A DNA stretch of 50,879 nucleotides from a virus. Under the pieces are notes generated by a model. The model saw nothing but the letters and a program-made list of their open reading frames with translations. It made no database searches and was not told the DNA's origin. The DNA lies in IMG/VR virus record IMGVR_UViG_3300032053_000117, positions 1 through 50,879 of that record. The stretch is one strand, 5' to 3'. This document shows, piece after piece, positions 1,252-50,845 of the stretch (the stretch's first letter is position 1; each line of letters starts with the position of its first letter). The position numbers and the translations under genes were made by a program.

Positions 1252-1686
1252 ATGCTAGTTCGAGCCACCAGTGCTATTGCTTACGCAGAGAATACCGCCA
1301 GCGGTTTGATCGACGATCTCCGCTTGCTTGTTTACAACGCGGTACACAGTGCTCCGCATTCGACTGCCAACGAAATCAGTCGACGGCCAGAGTTTGCCGA
1401 TTACCAGATTGATAGTGTGCGCCCGCGCTTCGCAGAATTGCGGCGTGTCGGCATCATCGCCGAAGGAGCCGAGCGCAAAGACCAGCACACGGACATGCTG
1501 TCGATTACGTGGTATATCACTAACAACGTTGCGCAAGAATCGGACTTTGAAAAACTCAAGGCACGTGTTTTCTGGGGGGTGAAGCGCGAGGGTCGTGTGG
1601 GTAAGCTGTATGCGGACAAGGAGCAGGCGCAGGAGGTAGCCGGTCAGGCCGGGCTATCAGTCATCAAGCTGCGCGAAGCTAAATGA
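1252..1686 (+). CDS. winged-helix DNA-binding protein
   Basis: 144 aa. Residues about 20-80 look like a winged helix: a helix (SGLIDDLRLLVYNAV), a STANEISRRPE segment as first helix of the HTH, IDSVRPRFAELRRVGII as recognition helix and first strand, then a wing with GAERKDQHTDMLSITWYI. The pattern 'SVRPRxAELRRxGII' is typical of small phage winged-helix proteins that bind DNA or act in replication or regulation. The rest is a basic tail (EGRVGKLYADKEQAQEVAGQ). It has a good ribosome site (AAAGGA, 6 nt before ATG), and its stop overlaps the HIRAN gene. It could be a regulator; the target is unknown. Confidence 0.7.
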   Translation: MLVRATSAIAYAENTASGLIDDLRLLVYNAVHSAPHSTANEISRRPEFADYQIDSVRPRFAELRRVGIIAEGAERKDQHTDMLSITWYITNNVAQESDFEKLKARVFWGVKREGRVGKLYADKEQAQEVAGQAGLSVIKLREAK

Positions 1687-2012
1687 AGACACACCAGTTT
1701 GAAGTGGCGGGCGTGAAGTTCCGCAGCAAGGCGTTCGACGAGGCGCAGGTCCAGCGCGGCGACCGGCTGACCCTGATCTTGGAGCCGACCAACAAGTACG
1801 ACTCCGGCGCTATCGCCGTCTACAAGGGCGAGCACCACATCGGCTACGTGCCGCGCACCCACAACACCTTGATCCACGAGGCGGTCGCCCAGCGCCCAGC
1901 AGAGGTCGGCGTCTGCGTGGACGCGGCGTGGAAGGGCGGGTGCTGGGTCGTTGTAAACATTAAGGAACAAGATGGGAACAGTGATGTTGAGGTTTCCCAG
2001 ACCGCTGGATGA
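1683..2012 (+). CDS. HIRAN-domain protein
   Basis: 109 aa, nearly all one HIRAN domain. The pattern is V(A)GVKFR near residue 8, GDRLTLILEPTNKYD at 26-40, then AIAVYKGEHHIGYVPR and a helix NTLIHEAVA. The signature L-EP-N-YD-x-AI-V and IGYVP is characteristic. HIRAN domains occur in HLTF/Rad5 helicases, where they bind 3' DNA ends, and as stand-alone proteins in bacteria and phages. A role in handling damaged or branched phage DNA is inference. ATGA overlap with the winged-helix gene upstream; overlaps the next gene by 41 bp. Confidence 0.8.
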   Translation: MKTHQFEVAGVKFRSKAFDEAQVQRGDRLTLILEPTNKYDSGAIAVYKGEHHIGYVPRTHNTLIHEAVAQRPAEVGVCVDAAWKGGCWVVVNIKEQDGNSDVEVSQTAG

Positions 2013-2906: not shown

Positions 2907-2909
2907 CCC

Positions 2910-3780
2910 TGACTTCAACCCTCTCCGAAAAGAGGGCTGTGGTCAAGGCAGTGCAAGGCAGCGCATTGCAGCGCATTGCGTAGTATAGCGCAGTACCGCT
3001 ACGCTGACTTCAACCCTCCCATCGGAAGGGCTGTGGTCAAGGCAGTGCAAGGCACAGCAGCGCATGGCGCCGCATCGGTTGGGATCGTAATGCACGGTAC
3101 GGGAGTGCTACGCTGACTTCAACCCTCTCCGAAAAGAGGGCTGTGGTCAAGGCACGGCACAGGAGCGTACGGCATTGAACCGCTGCGCAAAGCAACGTAC
3201 CGCTGTGCTCAGGAATGCTGACTTCGGCTCTCTGTAAACAAAGAGCCGTGGGTCGGCAGTACATAGCACTGCATCGTATTGGATGGTATGGCACAGCGCG
3301 GCACTGCTGGGCTGCGCTGACTTCAACCCTCCCATCGGAAGGGCTGTGGTCAGGGCATTGGGACGCGTTGGATTGCAAGGTGCTGTATGGCACCGCAAGG
3401 CAGGGCACAGCACTGACTTCAGCCCTCTCAACAAGAAGGCTGTGGTCATGGCTGCGCGAGGCAGACCACGCCGACACACGGCCTTCGCAAAAGACCGAGT
3501 GTCAGTGGTGTATTGCATGGCAGGGCAGGGCATAGCAGCGCACAGCACGGCAAGGCAGCGCTGCGCTGACTTCAACCCTCTCCGAAAAGAGGGCTGTGGT
3601 CGGGGCATCGTACCGCTGTGGAATGCACGGTATTGCAGCGCAAAGTACGGCATAGGACTGCAATGTACGGCACAGACTTCAGCCCTCCCGGCGGAAGGGC
3701 TGTGGTCAGCGCAGTGTGACGCAGTGGGTTGCACGACTAGGCGTTGCAGGGCATAGCAGGGGACTGCGTTGCCAATGGTA
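2910..3780. repeat. array of eight hairpin repeats with pentamer-phased spacers
   Basis: Non-coding stretch between convergent genes. Eight copies of a 35-36 nt unit begin at 2910, 3005, 3114, 3219, 3318, 3414, 3567 and 3674; a degenerate ninth may lie near 3469-3507. Each unit has outer arms TGAC/GTCA and an inner stem (CCCTCT/AGAGGG in copy 1). The stem sequence changes but pairing is kept: copy 4 has GGCTCT/AGAGCC, copies 2 and 5 CCCT/AGGG, copy 8 AGCCCT/AGGGCT. Between units lie spacers of about 60-75 nt (one 118) built of NNGNA pentamers in strict phase, e.g. AGGCA GTGCA AGGCA. Open frames here are by-products of the period. Function unknown. It is not a CRISPR array because the spacers are low-complexity and alike. 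Confidence 0.9.
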
Positions 3781-3782
3781 TG

Positions 3783-4364
3783 CTAAGCTTCGTCGTCATC
3801 GCCATCACTGAGGCGACGCGAAACCTGTTTTTCGGCACGCTCGCTCAAGGTGCCGCGCAGTTTTTCAGCTTGCGCCTCCATGATGCGTTTTGTCGCCGCC
3901 TTGTTCGACTCGAATGCCAGCATCCGAGCCGAGTTTTCCTCCGCTTTTTGCAGCCGCATCTTCTGCTCTGGCGTGAGCACATGCGCGTGCTGAGCCAAGA
4001 CGGCCCGGCTAAGCCGAATCTGTCGGCAGCGGGTGTTGAGGATTTTCCGTTCCCAGAGTTTGAGTTGCTGCTCTGTGGTCGGAACAGGTATTAAACGGTA
4101 GCCTTTGCCGTTGTTGCCACGCTCCGCGAGGTAGAAACCGCGATCAATCAGTAGCTCGCGAACGGCCATGATCTCGGTCTTGTAGCGCAGGGTATCGTGT
4201 CTCAAGCCCAAGTTGTGCTCGAAATACTCGTGAGTCAGAAGTTCTGAGCCTTCCTTGCTGCCGACCAGCAGCCCGCTTGACTCCATCACATCCACGCAGT
4301 GAACGGATTCAGGCAACCGGGTTGTGGCTGGTCTTGGCAGCACAGGTGCGTCCTTAGCGTTCAT
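3783..4364 (-). CDS. hypothetical protein, possible winged helix
   Basis: 193 aa. Residues about 45-95 could form a winged helix: EYFEHNLGLRHDTLRYK as an HTH, a helix EIMAVRELLIDRGFYL and a wing NNGKGYRLIPVP. The second half is a long charged helix, probably a coiled coil (QKMRLQKAEENSARMLAFES; EAQAEKLRGTLSERAEK), ending in an acidic tail SDGDDDEA. The gene is 1 nt downstream of the neighbouring minus gene and is probably cotranscribed from the promoter near 5217-5245. Its stop is just right of the hairpin array, so read-through would transcribe the array. Family not recognised. Confidence 0.65.
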   Translation of the reverse strand: MNAKDAPVLPRPATTRLPESVHCVDVMESSGLLVGSKEGSELLTHEYFEHNLGLRHDTLRYKTEIMAVRELLIDRGFYLAERGNNGKGYRLIPVPTTEQQLKLWERKILNTRCRQIRLSRAVLAQHAHVLTPEQKMRLQKAEENSARMLAFESNKAATKRIMEAQAEKLRGTLSERAEKQVSRRLSDGDDDEA

Positions 4365-4365
4365 A

Positions 4366-5076
4366 TCAATCTAAGAACGCGACGGTGAACCGACCAAACT
4401 TCGGACGCCAGACGCCAATGCCGATCATGTAGCCGAGGTTGACGGCGGTTTTGCGTGCGTCGACTTCCGAAAGCATGTTGGTGTCGACCATCATTGTGTA
4501 CACCAGCTTGGCTCCCGTCGGGATTGACGGGCGGTGAAAAGCAACACGTGAGCCTGTCCGGGGTGGAATGCGCACCGGTTTTTTGAACACGTACTCGTTG
4601 TCGACCTGAACGTAGGTGTCGTAGACGAACGACAGGAGAGGGTCGATCTCAATGCCGTATTCTTCGGCAAACTCCACCGGACTCTTGTAGCCCTTTGGAA
4701 CGCTTACCGGGTGTTTCGTGCCCTCGAACTGGACCTGCGGTTCCACGAGTTGGATGGCTATTTCAGCCTGCTTGCCCAGCTTCTCCTTGGCGGCTGATTC
4801 GCGCAATCCCTTCTCGAAGTTGTCGCTGGGGATGTAAAAGCTCTTGGCTTCCGCGTCCCAGTAGGCAGCAGCGCACCACTGGAGTTTGAGGATGGCAGCT
4901 TCGAGGTCATCCGTGTTTTGCTTCTTGAGCTTTTTCTTTTTGACTTGGAGGTCTTTGATGCACTTCGTCCACAGGTGCGTGCTGTCCAGCGCAACAGTGT
5001 TGTGCAAAAGACAGGGACGAATGAGGGTGTTTTCGACCTTGATCTCCACAAGGCCGTTCGAGTGTTTTTTACTCAT
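4366..5076 (-). CDS. conserved phage protein with C-terminal WRPxFGRF motif
   Basis: 236 aa. The overall pattern is one I associate with a conserved phage family: LIRPCLLHNTVALDS at the N-terminus, a Lys-rich helix (KKKKLKKQ), CAAAYWDAEAKSFYIPSDN, a helix of KGLRESAAKEKLGK, and a C-terminus with LGYMIGIGVWRPKFGRFTV. The G-x-G-x-WRPxxGRFxV ending is distinctive. Members often sit near phage replication or recombination genes; function uncertain. A sigma70-like promoter lies 134 nt upstream, leaving a structured leader. Confidence 0.6.
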   Translation of the reverse strand: MSKKHSNGLVEIKVENTLIRPCLLHNTVALDSTHLWTKCIKDLQVKKKKLKKQNTDDLEAAILKLQWCAAAYWDAEAKSFYIPSDNFEKGLRESAAKEKLGKQAEIAIQLVEPQVQFEGTKHPVSVPKGYKSPVEFAEEYGIEIDPLLSFVYDTYVQVDNEYVFKKPVRIPPRTGSRVAFHRPSIPTGAKLVYTMMVDTNMLSEVDARKTAVNLGYMIGIGVWRPKFGRFTVAFLD

Positions 5077-39697: not shown

Positions 39698-41071
39698 CTA
39701 ACTACGGCGAGGCCAGTCACTCGGCTTCCCCTGCCACTGGCTGAACACGTCCTGCGCCAGATCGCTGATGGCTTCCTGCTGCCAGAATTCTTCCAAGGCG
39801 TCGTCGGCCCGCGCCTGTTTCAATTCGTCGGCCATGTTCAGCTTTAAGTTGTCGATGGCGATGTCGACGGCGTGGGTTGCGGTCACCATCCGCACCGCTT
39901 CGGCCTCTGGCATGTCGAAGGCGTCTACAAGTTCCCGTACGATGGCGTCGCCGGTTACCCAGCCCTTCACCCACTTCTTGCCGGTGACCGCCGTGACCAC
40001 CTTCTTGGGCTTCTTGGGGCGCATCGGTGGACGCCCGTCGTACTTGGCTTTGATGGCGTCCATTTCGGCCCACGTTTCTGCGCTGGCTGGGGCGCTGTAG
40101 AGCGCCCAGAACCTTTCGGCGTCGGCTTCTTCGTCCTTCATGCCTTCGATGGAGTCCTTGAGAACTTGGAACTCGCTCAGGGTGAAATTCTCGCCCACGT
40201 CGAACATGGCCGGGCGGGGAATGCGGGAGTCCATCTCGGTCCAGAGGTCGGGAGGCAGGCCGCGCTCCAAGAGGCGGCGCTTGTCGATCTCCGGGCCGAT
40301 CTCGATGACGATGTGACCTTCCTTCAGGCGGGGTGCCACAACGCTCTCGTAGCGCCACAGCGCGTCGGAGACGTGGAGGATGCCGTCCACCAAGGGTGTG
40401 AGCCTGCGGCCCTTGCTGGCCCTCTGGAGCGCGTCCACGGTGCTTTGGAACGGACTGGTGTCTACCACGGTGGACGGCCAGCCAAGGCTCTCGGCCCAGT
40501 TTTCCAGACGCCGGGCGTAGCTGTGAGCAGCTTTCCCGTTGATTCTGAAGTAGATACCCGGTACAGGCTCCGGCGGAGCGGCGACGGTTGCGACGGCAAA
40601 GCCCAGTGATTCAGCCACTTCCACAGCATCATCCACAATCTGTTGGGGTTTGTGGACTCGGTTGGCCCCAAGGTGTATGGCCAGACGGTCGGTGCCGTTC
40701 AGGTCGCCAAGCTCGTTGACAGGTGCCCACCGAACCTTGGTCACGTCTCCACCGCCGGGCCGGGCTTCGGCTTGGTCGGTGATGGCGTAGAACAGGTTGA
40801 CCTCGCGCCCCGGTCCTCTGGCAGCGTGCCTTGCCCAGATCAAGGGTTCTGGCTCCACGTCGAGGCCAGTCTCCTCCTTCACTTCCCGCTTGGCGGCTTC
40901 CGCGTGGCTCTCGCTGCCTTTGGCGTGGCCGCCGGGGATGCTCCAGCGTCCTTTCTCGTCGGCAACCAAGAGCGCTTCCATGCCAGCCTCGCCGGAGCGG
41001 AGGACGACGCAGAGGTTGGACTGATCCACCGCTTCAGTGAGCCGGTCAACGATGAGCTTTGCGTTCATCAT
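39698..41071 (-). CDS. Nudix hydrolase fused to a large unknown domain
   Basis: 457 aa. Begins MMNAKLIVDRLTEAVDQ, an LLE-like N-terminus (LTE in place of LLE). Residues 18-140 are a Nudix domain: the box GGHAKGSESHAEAAKREVKE then ETGL fits G-x5-E-x7-RE-x2-EE-x-G. It should hydrolyse a nucleoside diphosphate derivative, which cannot be named. Residues 150-457 are unrecognised: an alpha/beta part (YFRINGKAAHSYARRLENWA), then charged helices with Lys/Pro-rich stretches. A fused Nudix with a virion-type N-terminus would be unusual. Its TAG stop opens the GTAGTTA element of the next gene. Confidence 0.75.
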   Translation of the reverse strand: MMNAKLIVDRLTEAVDQSNLCVVLRSGEAGMEALLVADEKGRWSIPGGHAKGSESHAEAAKREVKEETGLDVEPEPLIWARHAARGPGREVNLFYAITDQAEARPGGGDVTKVRWAPVNELGDLNGTDRLAIHLGANRVHKPQQIVDDAVEVAESLGFAVATVAAPPEPVPGIYFRINGKAAHSYARRLENWAESLGWPSTVVDTSPFQSTVDALQRASKGRRLTPLVDGILHVSDALWRYESVVAPRLKEGHIVIEIGPEIDKRRLLERGLPPDLWTEMDSRIPRPAMFDVGENFTLSEFQVLKDSIEGMKDEEADAERFWALYSAPASAETWAEMDAIKAKYDGRPPMRPKKPKKVVTAVTGKKWVKGWVTGDAIVRELVDAFDMPEAEAVRMVTATHAVDIAIDNLKLNMADELKQARADDALEEFWQQEAISDLAQDVFSQWQGKPSDWPRRS

Positions 41072-41072
41072 A

Positions 41073-44000
41073 TCATGTCATGTTCAGAGTGACCACCGTG
41101 TCTCCGAGCACAACGAAGCTGACCGGGTTGGTCAGGTACGTGTTGCCGTTGATGACCCAACTACCGAATGTATACGAAAGCACGGTCAAGATTTGATTCT
41201 TGGTCACGTCCACGAAAGCCGAGGTAAAGGCAGTGGCGTCGGAGCCGCCGTTGCGCAGGATTTCCAAGTCCCACTCGGAGCCAGCCAGCGGCTGCGGGTC
41301 CGGCACGACTTCGGCCACTTGGCAGTAATCGACGACGACATCCTTAACCAAGTCGCCGGAGACGATGGTGTTGAGCGTGGACGTGAGGTAGTAGGGAGGC
41401 GACAGGTCTTTGATGTATACAGTCGTCCCCTTGCGGCCAATCGCCGGGCTGGCGGCGATGTCGGTAATCTGGGCGTTGACTACACAGGCCAACTGGACTT
41501 CGGCAGCTTGGAGTGCTGCTGTGATGCTGGCTTTGGTCACGACTCCGGCGGTGAGGTCTTCGCGGCCCTCGTCGGTGATAAGGATAAACAGTTTCACCGC
41601 GCCGGGCCGGTACGCGTAGCTGGAAAGTGCAAAATCCATCGCTTCGTACCCATCCTCGTTACTGCCGTTGGTGACCAGCCCAGCGGCGGCGGTTTCCAGT
41701 TGGGATGCGGTGCCCCAGTCGCCCCCGCCAACGGCAATCTTGAACGCTTTTTGACCGGGGCCAAAGAGAACGGTTCCAAAGCCTACCATCGCGTAGCTGT
41801 TCACGTCGATACCTGCGCCGATTCCGGCAGCTACCAGAGCGCTCTCCAAGAGCGACGGCAGAAACGGTGGCGTGCCCGGCGGTCTGCCGAGCCACGCCTG
41901 CTCTGCCAGCATGGAGCCGGAGCAGTCTACGAGGAACACCACGTCCACGTACCCGGTAGCGGGCATGAGGGCAGGAATGGCTGTCAAGGTTATGACTGAT
42001 CCGTAACGGTAGGTGCCGAGGCCCAAAATGACGGCGGACCCCGGTGGCGCAAGGATGCTGCTAACCACCACGTCAGGCACCGGGATGGTGGGCGGGAACA
42101 GGCCCAGAGCTTCCGGCATCCAGAAGTCTGACTGGGCCACGTAGATGCCTTGCTCGATCATCCACGGCTGGCAAGCCACAAGGACGGGTGTCGAGAGTAG
42201 GGTGTCGTAGTAGGCTTTGGCTTTCTTTTCGTCTTCGTCGAAGTAGAGGCCGCGTGGCATCAAGGCAGGCTTGCCGACGTGTCCGGCTTTGCTTTTCATG
42301 AAAGCGCCGACTTGATGGACTGTGCCGGAACTATAGGCGGTGCCCGCGCTTTCCGTCGCGTAGAACTTTTGGCCTTCTGTGAAGGTAGTTCCGTTGTACA
42401 CAACAAAGGTCGTGTCCACTTCGTACTGGCGGCCCGGCGCTAGGCCGTCTTGTGCGATGGCAGGAACTTCGCGCAGGCGAGGGGTGCAGACCTCCGTGAA
42501 GCTCATCCAGTTCTCTGAGGCGTCCGGCGTCCAGTATGAGCCGCTGTCGCGGAAGGTCGGGGTGTCCGTGCCGTAATCAGCCAGCGCCAACGCGTAGCCC
42601 TGCTGGACGACCCGCTCTGAGCGGTCCAAACACTCCTGCCGCCACGACTGAAAGCCCCGGCTGAGCGGCGTGCTCTGGTACTCGGTGAGCGTCTGCACCT
42701 GAACTTGCTGAAGCTGGATCGGCAGCGTGGCGTCTTCAGTGTAGCTCGCGATGAACGGAACGGTGCCGGTGTGCGTTCCCATGCTGACGAACTGCCAGCG
42801 CAGAACGTCCGGTGTTTTGTTCTCGCCGTTGACATCGGCGTAGGCGGTGCTGCCGACGAAGCTGCCGGTTATGGCGAAGCGGGCCGTGCTCACGTCCGTT
42901 TTCTCGAAGGTGACCTTGCGGATGTGCAGTTCCCCGTTGCCGCCGGTCCAGTAGATCGGGAAAGTGAACGGACCTATGCTGTCCACGTCCACGCCTGCCG
43001 CCGAGGTTATGGCGATGTTGCCGTTGGTGGCTGTAAACGGGATGGGAGCCGTGTCTTGGATCACGGTCACGGCGTCGGCTCCCGAAGCCACGTACTGGGC
43101 CTTGATCCTGAAGCCGTCGGTCGTCCCGCTGAGGTTGGTGTACTCCAGCGCGACGCTCCACGACCCAAGAGGCAGCGCCAGCCCGAAGTTGAGCGCGTAT
43201 TGGCGCACGGTGCTGGGCACGACGCCGTACTGGGCGTAGGTGGGCACCGTGTTGGTGCCGGAGAAGGGGTCGCCCGGCAGGTAGAGCGATCCGTTGTATA
43301 CAATACCATCGCCGTTTTCGACCACGTAAACCTTGTTGCTCACGCTGCCGCTGACGACGTTGATGTCGAAGGTTGCGCCCCCGAGCGTGCCGCTGGTGTC
43401 GGACGTGTTCTGCGCTCCGGCCAGTTCAACCAGACCGTTGGGCTTGGAGAGCACGCTGACCCGGTAACCGGCGGCGGGTAACGTTCCGATCATGCTGAAC
43501 GTGATGTCGTCCGGTACGCTGAAGCTGACGCTGCCGGACTGCATGAGGCCGCCTGCCACAGAGTCGTTGTTGGTGCTGGTCAGGCAGAGGTCTGTGTCGG
43601 CAACCTCCATGCCTTCCGGCTTGAGCAGGCCCGCTTTCCCGCGCCAGTACTGAGGGTCCATGCGCTCTGGTATATGGGCCAAGGTTTCAAGGTACTGGCC
43701 GAAGGCGATGCCCGGAATCACCATCGCGTAAATCTGGGGCACGTGTACCTCATCCACGCGCTCGCGAATCCATTGCAGGGTTTTGCTCTGCGTGTCGTAG
43801 ATGATCTCGTTGGCTCCCGGCAGCGCCGGTTCAGACTGAAACACCCGGCGCGTGCCGTTGTCGCTGATGAGCGCGTAGATGTCCGCCTCCTGCTGAACGG
43901 TTCCAAAAGATTCGACCTGAACGTAGAGGCGCAGGGCGTGCTCGAAAGGGTTTTTCAGCACTTGCGCCAGCCGGGCGACGTAGCCCGCAAGCTGGTTGTC

Positions 44001-44585
44001 CCGGTCAGCGAGGTTGCGGTCGGGGTTCTTGAACAGGTCGCGGTTGAGCGGAAGGACGGCGTTGATGTCCGCCTGCATCGCAGCGCCCTGACCCAGCGAC
44101 CAGATGCTTGTGCTGGGGATGTCCGTGCCCGCCTGCGGGATGCTGGGGTCGACGAAGGCGCTGGCGCAGGCGCGGGCCAGAACTTCATAGACCAGCGCGT
44201 CGCGACCGTAGAGGTCCGCGTCGGCGTATCGGGCGGCGTCGTAGGGGATGCTGACGTTGGTGACGTGGCGTATCTGGCTGCTGAACGTTCCCGCTTCCGT
44301 GCCGACGAAGGGAAGCGTAAAAGGGGTTGGGCCTTGGAGGCTGGGCTTGAGGGTCGAGTAGTTGTATACATCTCCGACTTGGACGGAGACTTCCACGACC
44401 GCCGCGCCGACGATCAGGTCGCGGTAGGCAAGCTGCCGGTCGCGCTCTTGGTACACCTTGCAGTCAAAGGGAAGGTCCGGGTTGACCGGGGTGAGCGTCC
44501 CGCTGGAGGGAGCATCCACCGCTGACTCCCATCGGATGGTGTCGCGGAGCGCGATAACCAGTGCGCTTTCAAGTTGAGCGGCCAT
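41073..44585 (-). CDS. 1170-aa virion protein with vWA domain
   Basis: The first 860 residues are beta-rich and unrecognised, with features of tail or baseplate proteins (many Thr, Val, Tyr; no Cys clusters). About 880-1065 is a von Willebrand A domain: DVVFLVDCSGSM (DCSGS at 887-891 is the MIDAS metal site), SYAMVGFGTVLFG, VKLFILITDEGRED and a final YIKDL. A beta-rich domain ends the chain. vWA domains bind protein or sugar ligands through a metal ion, so it may be an adhesion or assembly part of the virion. It follows two smaller paralogous genes. Confidence 0.7.
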   Translation of the reverse strand: MAAQLESALVIALRDTIRWESAVDAPSSGTLTPVNPDLPFDCKVYQERDRQLAYRDLIVGAAVVEVSVQVGDVYNYSTLKPSLQGPTPFTLPFVGTEAGTFSSQIRHVTNVSIPYDAARYADADLYGRDALVYEVLARACASAFVDPSIPQAGTDIPSTSIWSLGQGAAMQADINAVLPLNRDLFKNPDRNLADRDNQLAGYVARLAQVLKNPFEHALRLYVQVESFGTVQQEADIYALISDNGTRRVFQSEPALPGANEIIYDTQSKTLQWIRERVDEVHVPQIYAMVIPGIAFGQYLETLAHIPERMDPQYWRGKAGLLKPEGMEVADTDLCLTSTNNDSVAGGLMQSGSVSFSVPDDITFSMIGTLPAAGYRVSVLSKPNGLVELAGAQNTSDTSGTLGGATFDINVVSGSVSNKVYVVENGDGIVYNGSLYLPGDPFSGTNTVPTYAQYGVVPSTVRQYALNFGLALPLGSWSVALEYTNLSGTTDGFRIKAQYVASGADAVTVIQDTAPIPFTATNGNIAITSAAGVDVDSIGPFTFPIYWTGGNGELHIRKVTFEKTDVSTARFAITGSFVGSTAYADVNGENKTPDVLRWQFVSMGTHTGTVPFIASYTEDATLPIQLQQVQVQTLTEYQSTPLSRGFQSWRQECLDRSERVVQQGYALALADYGTDTPTFRDSGSYWTPDASENWMSFTEVCTPRLREVPAIAQDGLAPGRQYEVDTTFVVYNGTTFTEGQKFYATESAGTAYSSGTVHQVGAFMKSKAGHVGKPALMPRGLYFDEDEKKAKAYYDTLLSTPVLVACQPWMIEQGIYVAQSDFWMPEALGLFPPTIPVPDVVVSSILAPPGSAVILGLGTYRYGSVITLTAIPALMPATGYVDVVFLVDCSGSMLAEQAWLGRPPGTPPFLPSLLESALVAAGIGAGIDVNSYAMVGFGTVLFGPGQKAFKIAVGGGDWGTASQLETAAAGLVTNGSNEDGYEAMDFALSSYAYRPGAVKLFILITDEGREDLTAGVVTKASITAALQAAEVQLACVVNAQITDIAASPAIGRKGTTVYIKDLSPPYYLTSTLNTIVSGDLVKDVVVDYCQVAEVVPDPQPLAGSEWDLEILRNGGSDATAFTSAFVDVTKNQILTVLSYTFGSWVINGNTYLTNPVSFVVLGDTVVTLNMT

Positions 44586-46540: not shown

Positions 46541-49500
46541 CTAAGCCTTGAACACTTTGGAGCGCGTGTAGCCTCTCGCTGGCAGGGGAATTGCGACAGG
46601 CGGCGCTTCCTGTTCATACTGCTGCATTTGCTGCCCCGTGTACATCGACGGAGCGTTGTGGCTCGACATGCTGATCTTTTCCTCCGAGTTGACGGCGTTG
46701 AAGTAGGCTCCGGCAGCGCCGTCGGTGGTGTCCTTGGAGTTGTGTACGAAGACGCCCGCCTCTAGGCCAAAGTTTTCAACACCGGGAATTGAAATATCGT
46801 ATACATCTGTAGGAGGAACCGTTACTGAGCGGCAGGATATAACCTTGTGATTGCGCGGTAGGCATTTTTGAAGGCGAATCGTTGCGGCTTTTTGAATGGA
46901 TTGACGGTGTTTAGCCAAACGTTCCGGTGACCAGTTCTGTCGATTTTCGCGATTTGTTCGCGCAGCGGTTTTAGCTGAGTTTTGTCTACCAGTTTCGGAT
47001 TTTGCGTAGTCAGCGAGGCGCTGGGTCATTTTAGACCGGTAAACAGGGTCAGCCCATCTGGCTTTATTGCGTTCGGATGTGCGCTGGCTGGCGGCTAGTG
47101 AAGTTACGGAGGCGTGCAGACGGGCTTTTTGTTCCGTTGTCATGCCTTTGTATACAATCTTGCCAGCTTTTTGTTTTTTAGCGATAAAAGCAGAGTTGTT
47201 GCTGTAGCGCATTTTGAATGTCAAAGCGCGTCGTTTCACGATTTCAGGATTAGAAGTGGCTTTGGAGATTAGAACATGCCGCCGATTGTGCTCGCTCGCG
47301 GTCAGACGCTCAAGCAGGTCTGGGTCGTTGTTGAGTGAGTTCAGACTTGCGTGATGAATAACCTCACCAGTTCTGGCCGGAAAACCACAGTGTTTGGCTA
47401 CGAGTTTGTGGGTCATGCGCCAGTTGCCTTCGCTCCAAACCTGTTCGTAGTAGCCGGTGCCGCGTTGGTATCTTACTTTGTACAGCTTTGTATACAGCGG
47501 CATCAAACTATCCCCAGCCTTTAGATTTTTGGCCGCGCAGTAACCACCTGTCTTGAGCATGAATCGGTGGTCAGGTGTGCAGCGCACGACTTTTTGATTA
47601 TCGAGCGTGACTTCAACAAGCTCTGTGACGGTTTTTGTTTTTCTGGCGTTGACTGCTTTTGCAGGTATTACTTCTCCTTTGCCTGTGTTGGCGTAAATCC
47701 ACACTGGTTTTGTTTCTTGCGCGAGTTCGGTCAGTGACTTGGTTGTGCCGTTGAGCAATTTTACCTTAGTGTCGCCGGTAAAACAGCCGTCGGGCGGATG
47801 GTCGAACTTCTTGTCCATCTCCAGCAGGTTCTCCGCCTCGCGGATCATTTGCTCGTTGCGGGGCAGCCGTATGCGGTGTTCCTCGAATCCGGCCCGCCAA
47901 GCGGTGTATACGGATTTGTCCTTGTCGACAGAGAGCTTGTCGACTTTGAACTGGCGGGCTTCCAATTCCTGTAGGGGCATGACGGACTGGTACATATCTG
48001 CTGTAATCAAGCCGAACCGGTAGCTGCACATGTCCCTAAGCCAGAAAAAGAACTTCTGAATCTTACCGAGGTTGATCGGTTTGTTCTGCCCGGCGCAGAT
48101 GGTCAGGATGAAATCGTACTCCACGATCAGGCGGTATTCGGCAAACGGCTCCCCGTCCTTGACCAACCCTTCCACAAGCTGGCTGCCCGCCAAGTGGCAG
48201 ACTGCGACGCCCGCCAAGCTCTGCGTGGCCAAGTCCAGATGCGCGTAGCGCTGGCTCTGCGGGTGGCGGATCGGCTGGATGCGCGAGGCGACGCGGGTGA
48301 GGAAGGATTTGTGTTCGAGGTAGTCCCAGATGTTCTTGTTGTCCTCCGAACTGATGGGGATGCGCTGGATGCCGGGCTTGAGCGGGTTGGGCACCCCTTC
48401 CTGCGCGGCCACCTGTATACAATGCTCGATGTCGATGAGGCTGGGAAAGAGCCGGTGAGCGCCGCCGCAGGAGATGCCGGACAGGTTTTGAAGCTGGGAC
48501 TTGCAGTTGCGCCGGTACGCCTCGTGGTAGAACTTGGGCACCAGTTCGGTCTTGGCACCGTTGGGCGGCTCCTCGTGCGGCTCATCAAGAACTGGCTCTC
48601 CGTCCTCCGTGTACCAGCCGGACATGATGAACGGCTCCATGTTCTTCAGGCCGTAGGCGACCTTGAACCAGTGATGGTCGGGGCCGATGCCGGTCAGGGC
48701 GTGGCGCTTGATCTTGTAGACAGCGTTGCGGAAGACGATCTGGCTGATGGGCCGAGGCTCAACACCCGCCGGGAGCTTGCGATTTTCAAGATCGCGCTGG
48801 CGGTTGGATTCTTCGATTTCTCCGACCACCTTCTCCGTGAAGCTGGACTCGTCTTGCGCGGATGACGCGATGATGGAGATGGCCGGGAGGTACGCTTCGA
48901 TTTTCTGGAAGCGGTTGGCGATGCGCGTGCGGACCTGATCGTAAAGCTCGTACGCCTTGAGGTCTGGGTCTTTTTCCAAACGGAAGTTGCCCTCGTCCAG
49001 CCCGATGCCGACAAGGTTGCGCCCCAGCACATGCTGGCCCTTGGACCCGGCGGTGAGCCAGATGCGCGAGAGGCGTCCGTCGGGCAGGGTGTTCTCCATT
49101 GGCACGCGGTAGCCGCTGTAATCAAGCTCCGCGTTGTACTTGCAGACCTCCAAGAAGTAGGGGCTGTCGGACATGTAGGTCATGGCCGTGCCGAAAGCTG
49201 TGTCCTTGACCGCCTCCTTGGTGACGGACAGGAGATTGTAGACAATGTTCGAGTTGCGGTTCAGCCCGAAGAAGTGCTGCGGGTTCTTCAGGTACGTGGC
49301 AATGCACATCCGGTAGAGCAGCACGGTCACCATCATGGCCGTGTTGTGCGTGACCGTGAAATCTTTGAGCAAAAACCGGTGGTTCCCATCAAGTTCAAAA
49401 CCGTAGTAATCGCCTTCGTCTAAAGGTATTACAGCGAACTTCGTTTTCAAGCAGTCTGCCTGTCGTTGGTGCCCTGTGATTGGGCTGGTGACTGGCTGGC

Positions 49501-50845
49501 CTTTTTTGCCTGTCTGTTTGCGCAAAAGTTTAGGATTTGCGTCGTAAGCGCCGGAGATGATCGTCCTGTAGTAGGCCGTACTATTGCAGATTTTGATTTT
49601 TGTCTGGGCAAAGTAGCCAAGCGATTGGGCGAGAAAACGGATTGAATCAGCAAACTTCTTAGGCTTTACTGTGATCTCGTAGACTCCGTTGCTCTGTTTG
49701 GCGGTTCGATTTTTTGCGCGTTTACCGCCTGTTGACTTGGAGCCATCCGTGTCTATAAGACCGGCAAAGACCTTTTGCCTGACGTGCTTTGAATTGAATA
49801 GATAAGCAGAAGGAATGTGCTTTTCCTGTGAGCCGTCTAGAGCGCAAAGACCGTAGCTCTTGAGTAAGTTTCTAAGTGGATTGCCGTCGATCCTGGCCTT
49901 TTTACGGTCTATAACGGAAGCGGAATAGGTTTTGGCCGCATTGCCGCGCTTGTCTACACCGACCGTAACGTGAAGTCCGAATGACTGCGCATAGGCCGTG
50001 TGGTAGGCCGCTATTTCGTCATCTGCGGTCGTTATCGTTGGAGAATCCGTATCTCCGTCGCCAAGCCAAAGCCCAAGCCAGTACGGGTCTACGGCCACAG
50101 GTTTTTCTACCCAGTCGCAGCCTGTCCTATAAAGACGTGCCTGATGGCGCTTTTGTCGTGGCCACTTCAAAAAGTCAGTGACGCTGACGTGTTCAATTTT
50201 TGAGCTGACCGAGCTTTTAAGGCAAAGGACGTGAGCATCGTTGCAGACAAACGGTTCACCTTTCGCCGGATAAATCTGGTACAGTGGCCCGCGCCCGCGT
50301 GTTGTAGACAGCACCTTGCGTGGCGTTGAATCGTCTCCCATCAGGAGTTCACCTGCTTTGATTTCCTGCACAGGCTTGACTGTTCCGTCTGACATCAAGC
50401 ATAACTCGTTGTAGCCTAAACACTTACCTATGCCCAGTGATCCGGTGATTACCATGTTGTGGATGCGGCTGTTTACATTCAGGTGGGCGCTGAGCAGTTC
50501 AATCCACGCAGGCCAGATGCCCTCGTTTTCGCCTTCAATGGGCCGCCACGATCTGCCGAGGAAGTAGTCTTTGAGGATGAACTCCTCGATGTCGGGCGGC
50601 TTCTTGACGTAGTCCAGACGCCAGAGTTCGCTGTCGGCGTTGAGGCAGCCGGGGCTGCCCGAGCGCATGATGGCAGCCAGTTCGTCGAACCGTTGCTGCT
50701 CCAGCGGCGTTAAAGACGAGTCGCGTATGCCCGGCGTGATGTTGCGCTCCCCCGTCAGGGTTTGCTCCATCGCCCGGTCAACCCGCTCCGTCACCATGCG
50801 GTGCGTTACCGTCTTGGGAGTAGCGTTGTCGGGCGTAGAACTCAT
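46541..50845 (-). CDS. terL: terminase large subunit with two inteins
   Basis: 1434-aa precursor; the spliced product would be 725 aa. The exteins carry the ATPase P-loop GSLGIGK/T (residues 135-141 then 502), Walker B GIGLDE (614-618) with the SSA coupling motif (about 660), and an RNase H-like nuclease: HLDLA (D871), LITADM (D950) and G/SKDTTDG (1370-1376). Intein 1 (142-501) splits the P-loop after its Lys; intein 2 (1021-1369) splits the third nuclease motif. The enzyme packages DNA into proheads and cuts it. The second half of the N-terminus is unrelated to any other gene here. ATG 50845 has no strong ribosome site. Confidence 0.93.
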   Translation of the reverse strand: MSSTPDNATPKTVTHRMVTERVDRAMEQTLTGERNITPGIRDSSLTPLEQQRFDELAAIMRSGSPGCLNADSELWRLDYVKKPPDIEEFILKDYFLGRSWRPIEGENEGIWPAWIELLSAHLNVNSRIHNMVITGSLGIGKCLGYNELCLMSDGTVKPVQEIKAGELLMGDDSTPRKVLSTTRGRGPLYQIYPAKGEPFVCNDAHVLCLKSSVSSKIEHVSVTDFLKWPRQKRHQARLYRTGCDWVEKPVAVDPYWLGLWLGDGDTDSPTITTADDEIAAYHTAYAQSFGLHVTVGVDKRGNAAKTYSASVIDRKKARIDGNPLRNLLKSYGLCALDGSQEKHIPSAYLFNSKHVRQKVFAGLIDTDGSKSTGGKRAKNRTAKQSNGVYEITVKPKKFADSIRFLAQSLGYFAQTKIKICNSTAYYRTIISGAYDANPKLLRKQTGKKGQPVTSPITGHQRQADCLKTKFAVIPLDEGDYYGFELDGNHRFLLKDFTVTHNTAMMVTVLLYRMCIATYLKNPQHFFGLNRNSNIVYNLLSVTKEAVKDTAFGTAMTYMSDSPYFLEVCKYNAELDYSGYRVPMENTLPDGRLSRIWLTAGSKGQHVLGRNLVGIGLDEGNFRLEKDPDLKAYELYDQVRTRIANRFQKIEAYLPAISIIASSAQDESSFTEKVVGEIEESNRQRDLENRKLPAGVEPRPISQIVFRNAVYKIKRHALTGIGPDHHWFKVAYGLKNMEPFIMSGWYTEDGEPVLDEPHEEPPNGAKTELVPKFYHEAYRRNCKSQLQNLSGISCGGAHRLFPSLIDIEHCIQVAAQEGVPNPLKPGIQRIPISSEDNKNIWDYLEHKSFLTRVASRIQPIRHPQSQRYAHLDLATQSLAGVAVCHLAGSQLVEGLVKDGEPFAEYRLIVEYDFILTICAGQNKPINLGKIQKFFFWLRDMCSYRFGLITADMYQSVMPLQELEARQFKVDKLSVDKDKSVYTAWRAGFEEHRIRLPRNEQMIREAENLLEMDKKFDHPPDGCFTGDTKVKLLNGTTKSLTELAQETKPVWIYANTGKGEVIPAKAVNARKTKTVTELVEVTLDNQKVVRCTPDHRFMLKTGGYCAAKNLKAGDSLMPLYTKLYKVRYQRGTGYYEQVWSEGNWRMTHKLVAKHCGFPARTGEVIHHASLNSLNNDPDLLERLTASEHNRRHVLISKATSNPEIVKRRALTFKMRYSNNSAFIAKKQKAGKIVYKGMTTEQKARLHASVTSLAASQRTSERNKARWADPVYRSKMTQRLADYAKSETGRQNSAKTAARTNRENRQNWSPERLAKHRQSIQKAATIRLQKCLPRNHKVISCRSVTVPPTDVYDISIPGVENFGLEAGVFVHNSKDTTDGAAGAYFNAVNSEEKISMSSHNAPSMYTGQQMQQYEQEAPPVAIPLPARGYTRSKVFKA
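46739..47785 (-). other. intein 2 of terminase, HNH endonuclease type
   Basis: 349 aa, precursor residues 1021-1369. Starts with CFTGDTKVKLLNG (block A), has TPDHRFML (block B) and ends NFGLEAGVFVHN (blocks F-G) before Ser. Residues about 140-170 are an HNH-type homing endonuclease: EVIHHASLNSLNND and ASEHNRRH. Then about 130 residues of basic, Thr/Arg/Lys/Gln-rich DNA-binding-like helices. The region looks less GC-rich than the exteins, which suggests later gain. Confidence 0.92.
49343..50422 (-). other. intein 1 of terminase, LAGLIDADG type
   Basis: 360 aa, precursor residues 142-501. Starts CLGYNELCLMSDGTVKPVQE (block A), has NDAHVL (block B, His present) and ends HRFLLKDFTVTHN (blocks F-G) before Thr. 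The two LAGLIDADG helices are WLGLWLGDGDTD (about 116-126) and VFAGLIDTDGS (about 218-228), so the homing endonuclease looks intact. Confidence 0.94.

Follow-up and report, generated by a model that had tools for sequence, protein, structure and literature searches.

A probable VIPR guide RNA array built on a GCA triplet in a virus record

Results

Hairpins and pentamer tracts alternate between two convergent genes

The DNA analysed here, hereafter the window, is the whole 50,879-nucleotide stretch of IMG/VR virus record IMGVR_UViG_3300032053_000117 (positions 1 to 50,879). Between the stop codon of a plus-strand gene (2694-2906) and the end of a convergent minus-strand gene (3783-4364), the gap is filled by a plus-strand array of eight units (2908-3782), each a hairpin followed by a tract of pentamers, which we read as a very probable array of guide RNAs (vrRNAs). 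The hairpin units share the pattern GACTTC..GGTC and begin at 2911, 3006, 3115, 3220, 3319, 3415, 3568 and 3675; a first-pass annotation of the sequence had correctly counted eight of them but sized them at 35-36 nt, where we measure 33-35 nt each. They alternate with tracts of 12-15 pentamers of the form NNGCA, giving a unit period of 95-153 nt, mostly 95-109.

Reading along the plus strand, on which all of these features lie, hairpin 1 (2911-2944) stands without a tract in front and is followed by tract 1 (2945-3005; NN words AG GT AG GC TT GC TT TA TA CA CC AC), hairpin 2 (3006-3038), tract 2 (3039-3114), hairpin 3 (3115-3148), tract 3 (3149-3219), hairpin 4 (3220-3254), which is the most diverged of the hairpins and carries compensatory changes in its stem, tract 4 (3255-3318), hairpin 5 (3319-3351), tract 5 (3352-3414) and hairpin 6 (3415-3447). 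Spacer 6 has a stretch without clean pentamers (3448-3502) and an extra hairpin unrelated to the eight (about 3463-3510), together with tract 6 (3503-3567), the cleanest of all, with ten consecutive GYA triplets. Hairpin 7 (3568-3601), tract 7 (3602-3674), hairpin 8 (3675-3707) and tract 8 (3708-3782), which is degraded toward its 3' end, complete the array. A conserved hairpin lies directly 3' of each of tracts 1-7, the place of the structured tail in VIPR guide RNAs; a clear hairpin tail was also looked for downstream of tract 8, and none was found.

Across 117 pentamers the consensus is G in 91%, C in 68% and A in 66%, with near-uniform NN positions; GCA is the array triplet, and GTA and GGA are minor forms. 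The G holds its phase at 92-100% in seven of the eight tracts and at 80% in tract 8. Set against expectation, the least frequent NN word is TA (0.55x). Codon positions 1-2 would show such a deficit, but this is weak evidence because TA is rare in most genomes.

The autocorrelation that the first-pass annotation proposed as a check on its central claim, a hairpin array with spacers phased at 5 nt, bears that claim out. Within the tracts, lag-5 identity reaches 0.51, whereas dinucleotide shuffles give 0.264 +/- 0.020 (z 12.2); the signal recurs at the harmonic lags 10, 15 and 20 while other lags are flat, and no region in the rest of the 50,879-base window comes near this signal. The pentamer phase had been said to carry over from unit to unit; measured from the 3' end of the hairpin before each tract, it is constant in six of the eight tracts, and so not throughout. 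Similarly, the first three spacers (given as 59, 74 and 69 nt; 61, 76 and 71 nt by our boundaries) do share a residue class modulo 5, but the proposed rule that spacer length changes only by whole pentamers is broken by the later ones, at 64, 63, 120 and 73 nt. All eight hairpins fold better than nearly all of their shuffles (z -2.6 to -5.7). Three stem pairs are altered on both sides in compensatory fashion, and the stem register leaves 90% of cells paired, against 34-50% when the partner is slid. The tracts that were folded fold no better than shuffles.

We agree with the first-pass annotation that the array is non-coding, because it takes up the whole interval from one stop codon to the other of two convergent genes, and because the openness of the minus strand across it is explained by the repeat itself, TGCNN being unable to form stops. 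Nor is it a CRISPR-Cas array: the spacers are built of one pentamer pattern, and no cas gene was found among the window proteins scanned. The iteron reading, already discounted in that annotation, is set aside here too, and an Rfam RNA family was rejected, since no family matched the array beyond its gathering score. A search for promoter-like sites gave none that exceeded chance.

Among the other genes of the window, a small HIRAN-domain gene (1683-2012, plus strand) belongs to the series of genes that precedes the array on its upstream side. On the minus strand, a 1434-aa frame (46541-50845) matches terminase large subunits and contains two intein-like regions (Hint/LAGLIDADG at residues about 150-433, Hint/HNH at about 1020-1369), and a gene for a NUDIX-domain protein (39698-41071) adjoins one for a 1170-aa protein with a possible VWA domain (41073-44585).

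A RAMP-like protein is encoded beside the array

An intact open frame on the minus strand (4366-5076) encodes a 236-aa protein, Vipr, predicted to be a RAMP-like guide-RNA-binding protein, with a C-terminal glycine loop GIGVWRPKFGRF. It falls in phrog_4652 (E 4.5e-18), a family of ~195 aa whose function is unassigned in PHROGs and whose profile has one PDB match, 36pp, the 'SUSP1 Vipr protein' (E 3.1e-39). The window protein alone also matches 36pp (E 6.4e-11), and by BLASTP it aligns over nearly its full length with the homologue in phage wV8 (E 3e-18, 28% identity). The AlphaFold model of the family (pLDDT 87) matches Csm3/Cas7-type CRISPR RAMPs, and the model of the window protein (pLDDT 66, moderate confidence) also matches Csm3-like RAMPs by Foldseek. 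The gene product is, in short, a small RAMP homologue with an RRM core and a glycine loop, as expected of a Vipr. Close relatives were found neither in viral contigs nor in plasmids.

One base downstream of vipr on the same strand lies a candidate vap (Vipr accessory protein) gene of 193 aa (3783-4364). Its product has a weak profile match (E 1.7e-4, 58 columns, probability 49%) to a ~145 aa family of array neighbours, which itself aligns by profile with the gene beside vipr in wV8 (probability 93%); it has no BLASTP match to that wV8 gene.

Related arrays adjoin the same protein family

The first-pass annotation had suggested searching for the hairpin unit in relatives, and at the level of sequence nothing was found: the exact hairpin pattern has no match in viral or bacterial collections, and the whole array has none by BLASTN among phages or plasmids. 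A looser pattern of eight GYA triplets spaced by two free bases was matched in over 100 contigs of viral origin and in over 100 bacterial stretches; the bacterial matches are nearly all simple tandem repeats, and many of the viral ones carry free NN words. In 26 viral records selected for free NN words, the pattern keeps to one strand, except that a single record has 2 of its 26 occurrences on the opposite one; a reversed-pattern control gave zero in every record. These arrays lie mostly between co-directional genes, in tracts of ~50-100 nt, many with hairpin-like sequence between. The same degenerate arrays occur in ~25 other viral contigs, most of them adjoining phrog_4652 genes, and the adjoining genes belong largely to two families, of ~195 aa (phrog_4652) and ~145 aa.

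The triplet is GCA, not GGY, in most array-bearing contigs from this search and also in phiHSIC and Vibrio phage 1.266.O, a frequency that is no measure of abundance since the search pattern was itself GYA. The published GGY form was recovered by the scan as GGT in phage wV8 and as GGC in phages LittleE and Trine, and GGC arrays are present in four of five Burkholderiales loci with the phrog_4652 family. Where one of these GCA loci includes a Vipr, array and vipr share a strand, apart from one stray tract on the other strand in contig L102.

Several individual loci deserve mention. In L020, L058, L107, L018 and L090, consecutive pentamer blocks without long hairpins are each shifted by 4 modulo 5; these may be the preprint's 'staggered array with overlapping vrRNAs', here with GCA. 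ORF21 of Listonella phage phiHSIC (L243:3114-3395, minus strand), annotated as a hypothetical protein, runs antisense on a pentamer array (tracts 3134-3392) and is probably not a gene, because the TGCNN strand cannot form stop codons. The annotated DR_4 repeats of phage wV8 (L246:2262-2319 and 3655-3712) are probably vrRNA tails, since they flank vipr and adjoin GGT pentamer tracts. On the minus strand of L095, 23 tracts with the triplet GCG lie opposite a weak Vipr-like frame of 637 aa and could be coding repeats.

In the Vipr tree, the window protein sits on a long branch whose position lacks support; no row shares more than 28% identity with it, and it falls outside a well supported clade formed by sixteen Viprs from GCA loci. 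A tree that unites the window and every GCA row in a single clade is rejected (AU p 0.0017), which suggests that the otherwise fixed triplet has switched more than once. This reading of the tree is provisional, since several branches are long and the sample comes from a GCA-biased search.

Searches for targets

When 114 guides were compared with 4 Mb of DNA (both strands counted), allowing skips of 0 to 3 bases between words, there was no excess for any skip. In public exact-pattern scans, window guides 7 and 6 (10 NN words each, 1-nt skip) had no match, and guides 1 and 3 (8 words) had 4 and 8, in which agreement of the outer words is about what chance would give. For the window guides these negatives weigh little against targeting, because the collections may include neither the host nor the other phages that infect it. 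A single guide from Vibrio phage 1.266 had no match in 228 genomes (genus of a Vibrio centre) or in viral contigs. Read as NNx codons, a guide of Vibrio phage 1.266.O (L244:3245-3304) gives G-(N/K)-G-(K/N)-S-T, like a Walker A motif; the resemblance was spotted post hoc, and no target was found for it.

Discussion

The first-pass annotation considered the array to be of no known type, a view overtaken by the description of VIPR systems in a 2026 preprint. In that preprint (PMC13142463), VIPR, a relative of CRISPR carried by viruses, pairs a small ancestral RAMP, Vipr, with guide RNAs of ~100 nt, each consisting of 9-16 YNNGG repeats and then a structured tail. Double-stranded DNA is paired by the NN words, one base being skipped between words and the triplet remaining unpaired. 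Targets are predicted to lie chiefly in competing phages, prophages and satellites, where binding has the effect of repressing transcription. The preprint distinguishes seven VIPR types, all GGY/NN 'or a related consensus', and the authors hold VIPR to be older than CRISPR (PMC13142463).

We believe that the window array is, with high probability, a vrRNA array of a VIPR system, because the phrog_4652 gene found beside such arrays matches SUSP1 Vipr and the protein models resemble Csm3/Cas7 RAMPs. The identification draws on the array anatomy, the protein family, its predicted RAMP-like fold and the association of array type with protein family. Tracts of 12-15 pentamers fall inside the 9-16 repeats, and a period of mostly 95-109 nt compares with the ~100 nt of the RNAs, as reported in the preprint. 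The closest described system, that of SUSP1 and the Felixounavirus phages (type II; PDB 36pp; wV8, L246), is likewise phage-borne, with a Vipr homologous along almost the entire protein, 9-16 pentamers per tract with variable NN words, a structured tail and a short gene beside vipr. The guesses of a protein-coated scaffold or a structured RNA in the first-pass annotation pointed in the right direction, in that the evidence favours an RNA with hairpin tails coated by a RAMP-like Vipr.

By analogy with the published systems, the NN pairs would form a discontinuous guide whose triplet is held by Vipr and whose hairpin is the RNA tail. Transcription of the plus strand would yield, after processing, eight vrRNAs of ~100 nt in which 12-15 NNGCA repeats run into a hairpin tail; tracts 1-7 would have hairpins 2-8 as their 3' tails, hairpin 2 serving tract 1 as in other vrRNAs. 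On the model of the SUSP1 system, Vipr would form a polymer along the tract with one subunit on each pentamer, gripping the GCA triplet and exposing the two variable bases for pairing. Pairing of the NN words with double-stranded DNA would then, presumably for GCA repeats as well, pass over one target base between successive words. Once bound, the complex would keep genes of competing phages or prophages from being transcribed, an effect that the preprint shows for GGY systems only. That the window's own VIPR copy carries out such guided DNA silencing seems probable to us, with less assurance than the identity of the array.

At the same time, the window system departs from described VIPR in its triplet, in the orientation of its array and in a Vipr with less than 30% identity to any relative. 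Several points count against the VIPR assignment: the ends of the array break the tract-then-tail order, with no tract before hairpin 1 and no clear tail after tract 8; the GCA triplet is looser than that of the relatives and differs from the published GGY, although the preprint admits 'a related consensus'; array and vipr occupy opposite strands; the searches for DNA targets and for promoter-like sites were negative; and confidence in the model of the window protein is moderate. Compared with SUSP1 and the Felixounavirus phages, where the triplet is GGT, the window has GCA, a ~40-residue insertion in the middle of Vipr, an array opposite vipr and the candidate vap, and an accessory gene not recognisably theirs. 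The GCA-triplet VIPR-like loci (Listonella phage phiHSIC, Vibrio phage 1.266.O and ~20 metagenomic contigs) share NNGCA tracts between hairpins and an adjoining phrog_4652 gene, but have the array on the vipr strand and tails that are often double hairpins. Class 1 CRISPR systems, with their Cas7/Csm3 backbones, resemble the window in alternating hairpin handles with guides and in coating the guide RNA with a RAMP (predicted here), whereas their spacer is contiguous with a 6-nt period and the window's guide is discontinuous, in pentamers. It is possible, on a tentative view, that GCA-coded VIPR arose repeatedly from GGY-coded VIPR (or the reverse) by switching of the triplet, and that the window represents a separate, undescribed type whose array forms its own transcription unit opposite vipr and vap.

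The departures could instead mark a VIPR locus that is decaying or silent, with the loose triplets (C 68% and A 66%, against often 90-100% in relatives), the degraded tract 8 (G phase 80%), the foreign hairpin within spacer 6 and the inversion all reflecting loss of function. We consider this unlikely, given that the G stands at 92-100% in seven of the eight tracts, compensatory changes are kept in the hairpin stems and the vipr frame is intact.

Far less probable is a DNA element, an origin, partition or packaging site in which half-turn repeats are bound by protein on double-stranded DNA. Five base pairs is indeed half a helical turn and the hairpins could form cruciforms, but arrays in the relatives are strictly oriented on one strand and co-directional with flanking genes, they associate with an RNA-binding RAMP family, and the pattern is not repeated elsewhere in the window. 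We do not follow the first-pass annotation in its suggestions of bent DNA or of a role in replication or packaging; a period of 5 nt agrees with the length of the vrRNA repeat that Vipr reads. The TRAP-binding leader comprises 11 (G/U)AG triplets at two-base spacing, plus the TRAP protein. A comparable RNA of pentamer repeats (KAGNN in TRAP), to which a ring protein binds in order to regulate mRNA and which is not a guide, would account for a triplet with a two-base spacer at ~11 repeats per tract and for relatives' arrays that often lie between genes or in 5' leaders, but it is the least credible reading, for the triplet is GCA and not TRAP's, the neighbouring partner is a RAMP whose family has a solved guide-RNA-binding member, and the NN words are hypervariable between tracts, as in guides.

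Regardless of how the GCA triplet arose, a VIPR system of this kind would be useful in several respects. A divergent Vipr paired with another triplet would allow a direct test of the residues that read the triplet, and a GCA system would allow the 1-nt skip rule to be tested beyond GGY systems. With two VIPR codes side by side in one cell, crosstalk between them would become testable. More generally, the period of five allows arrays of the VIPR type to be recognised in raw sequence.
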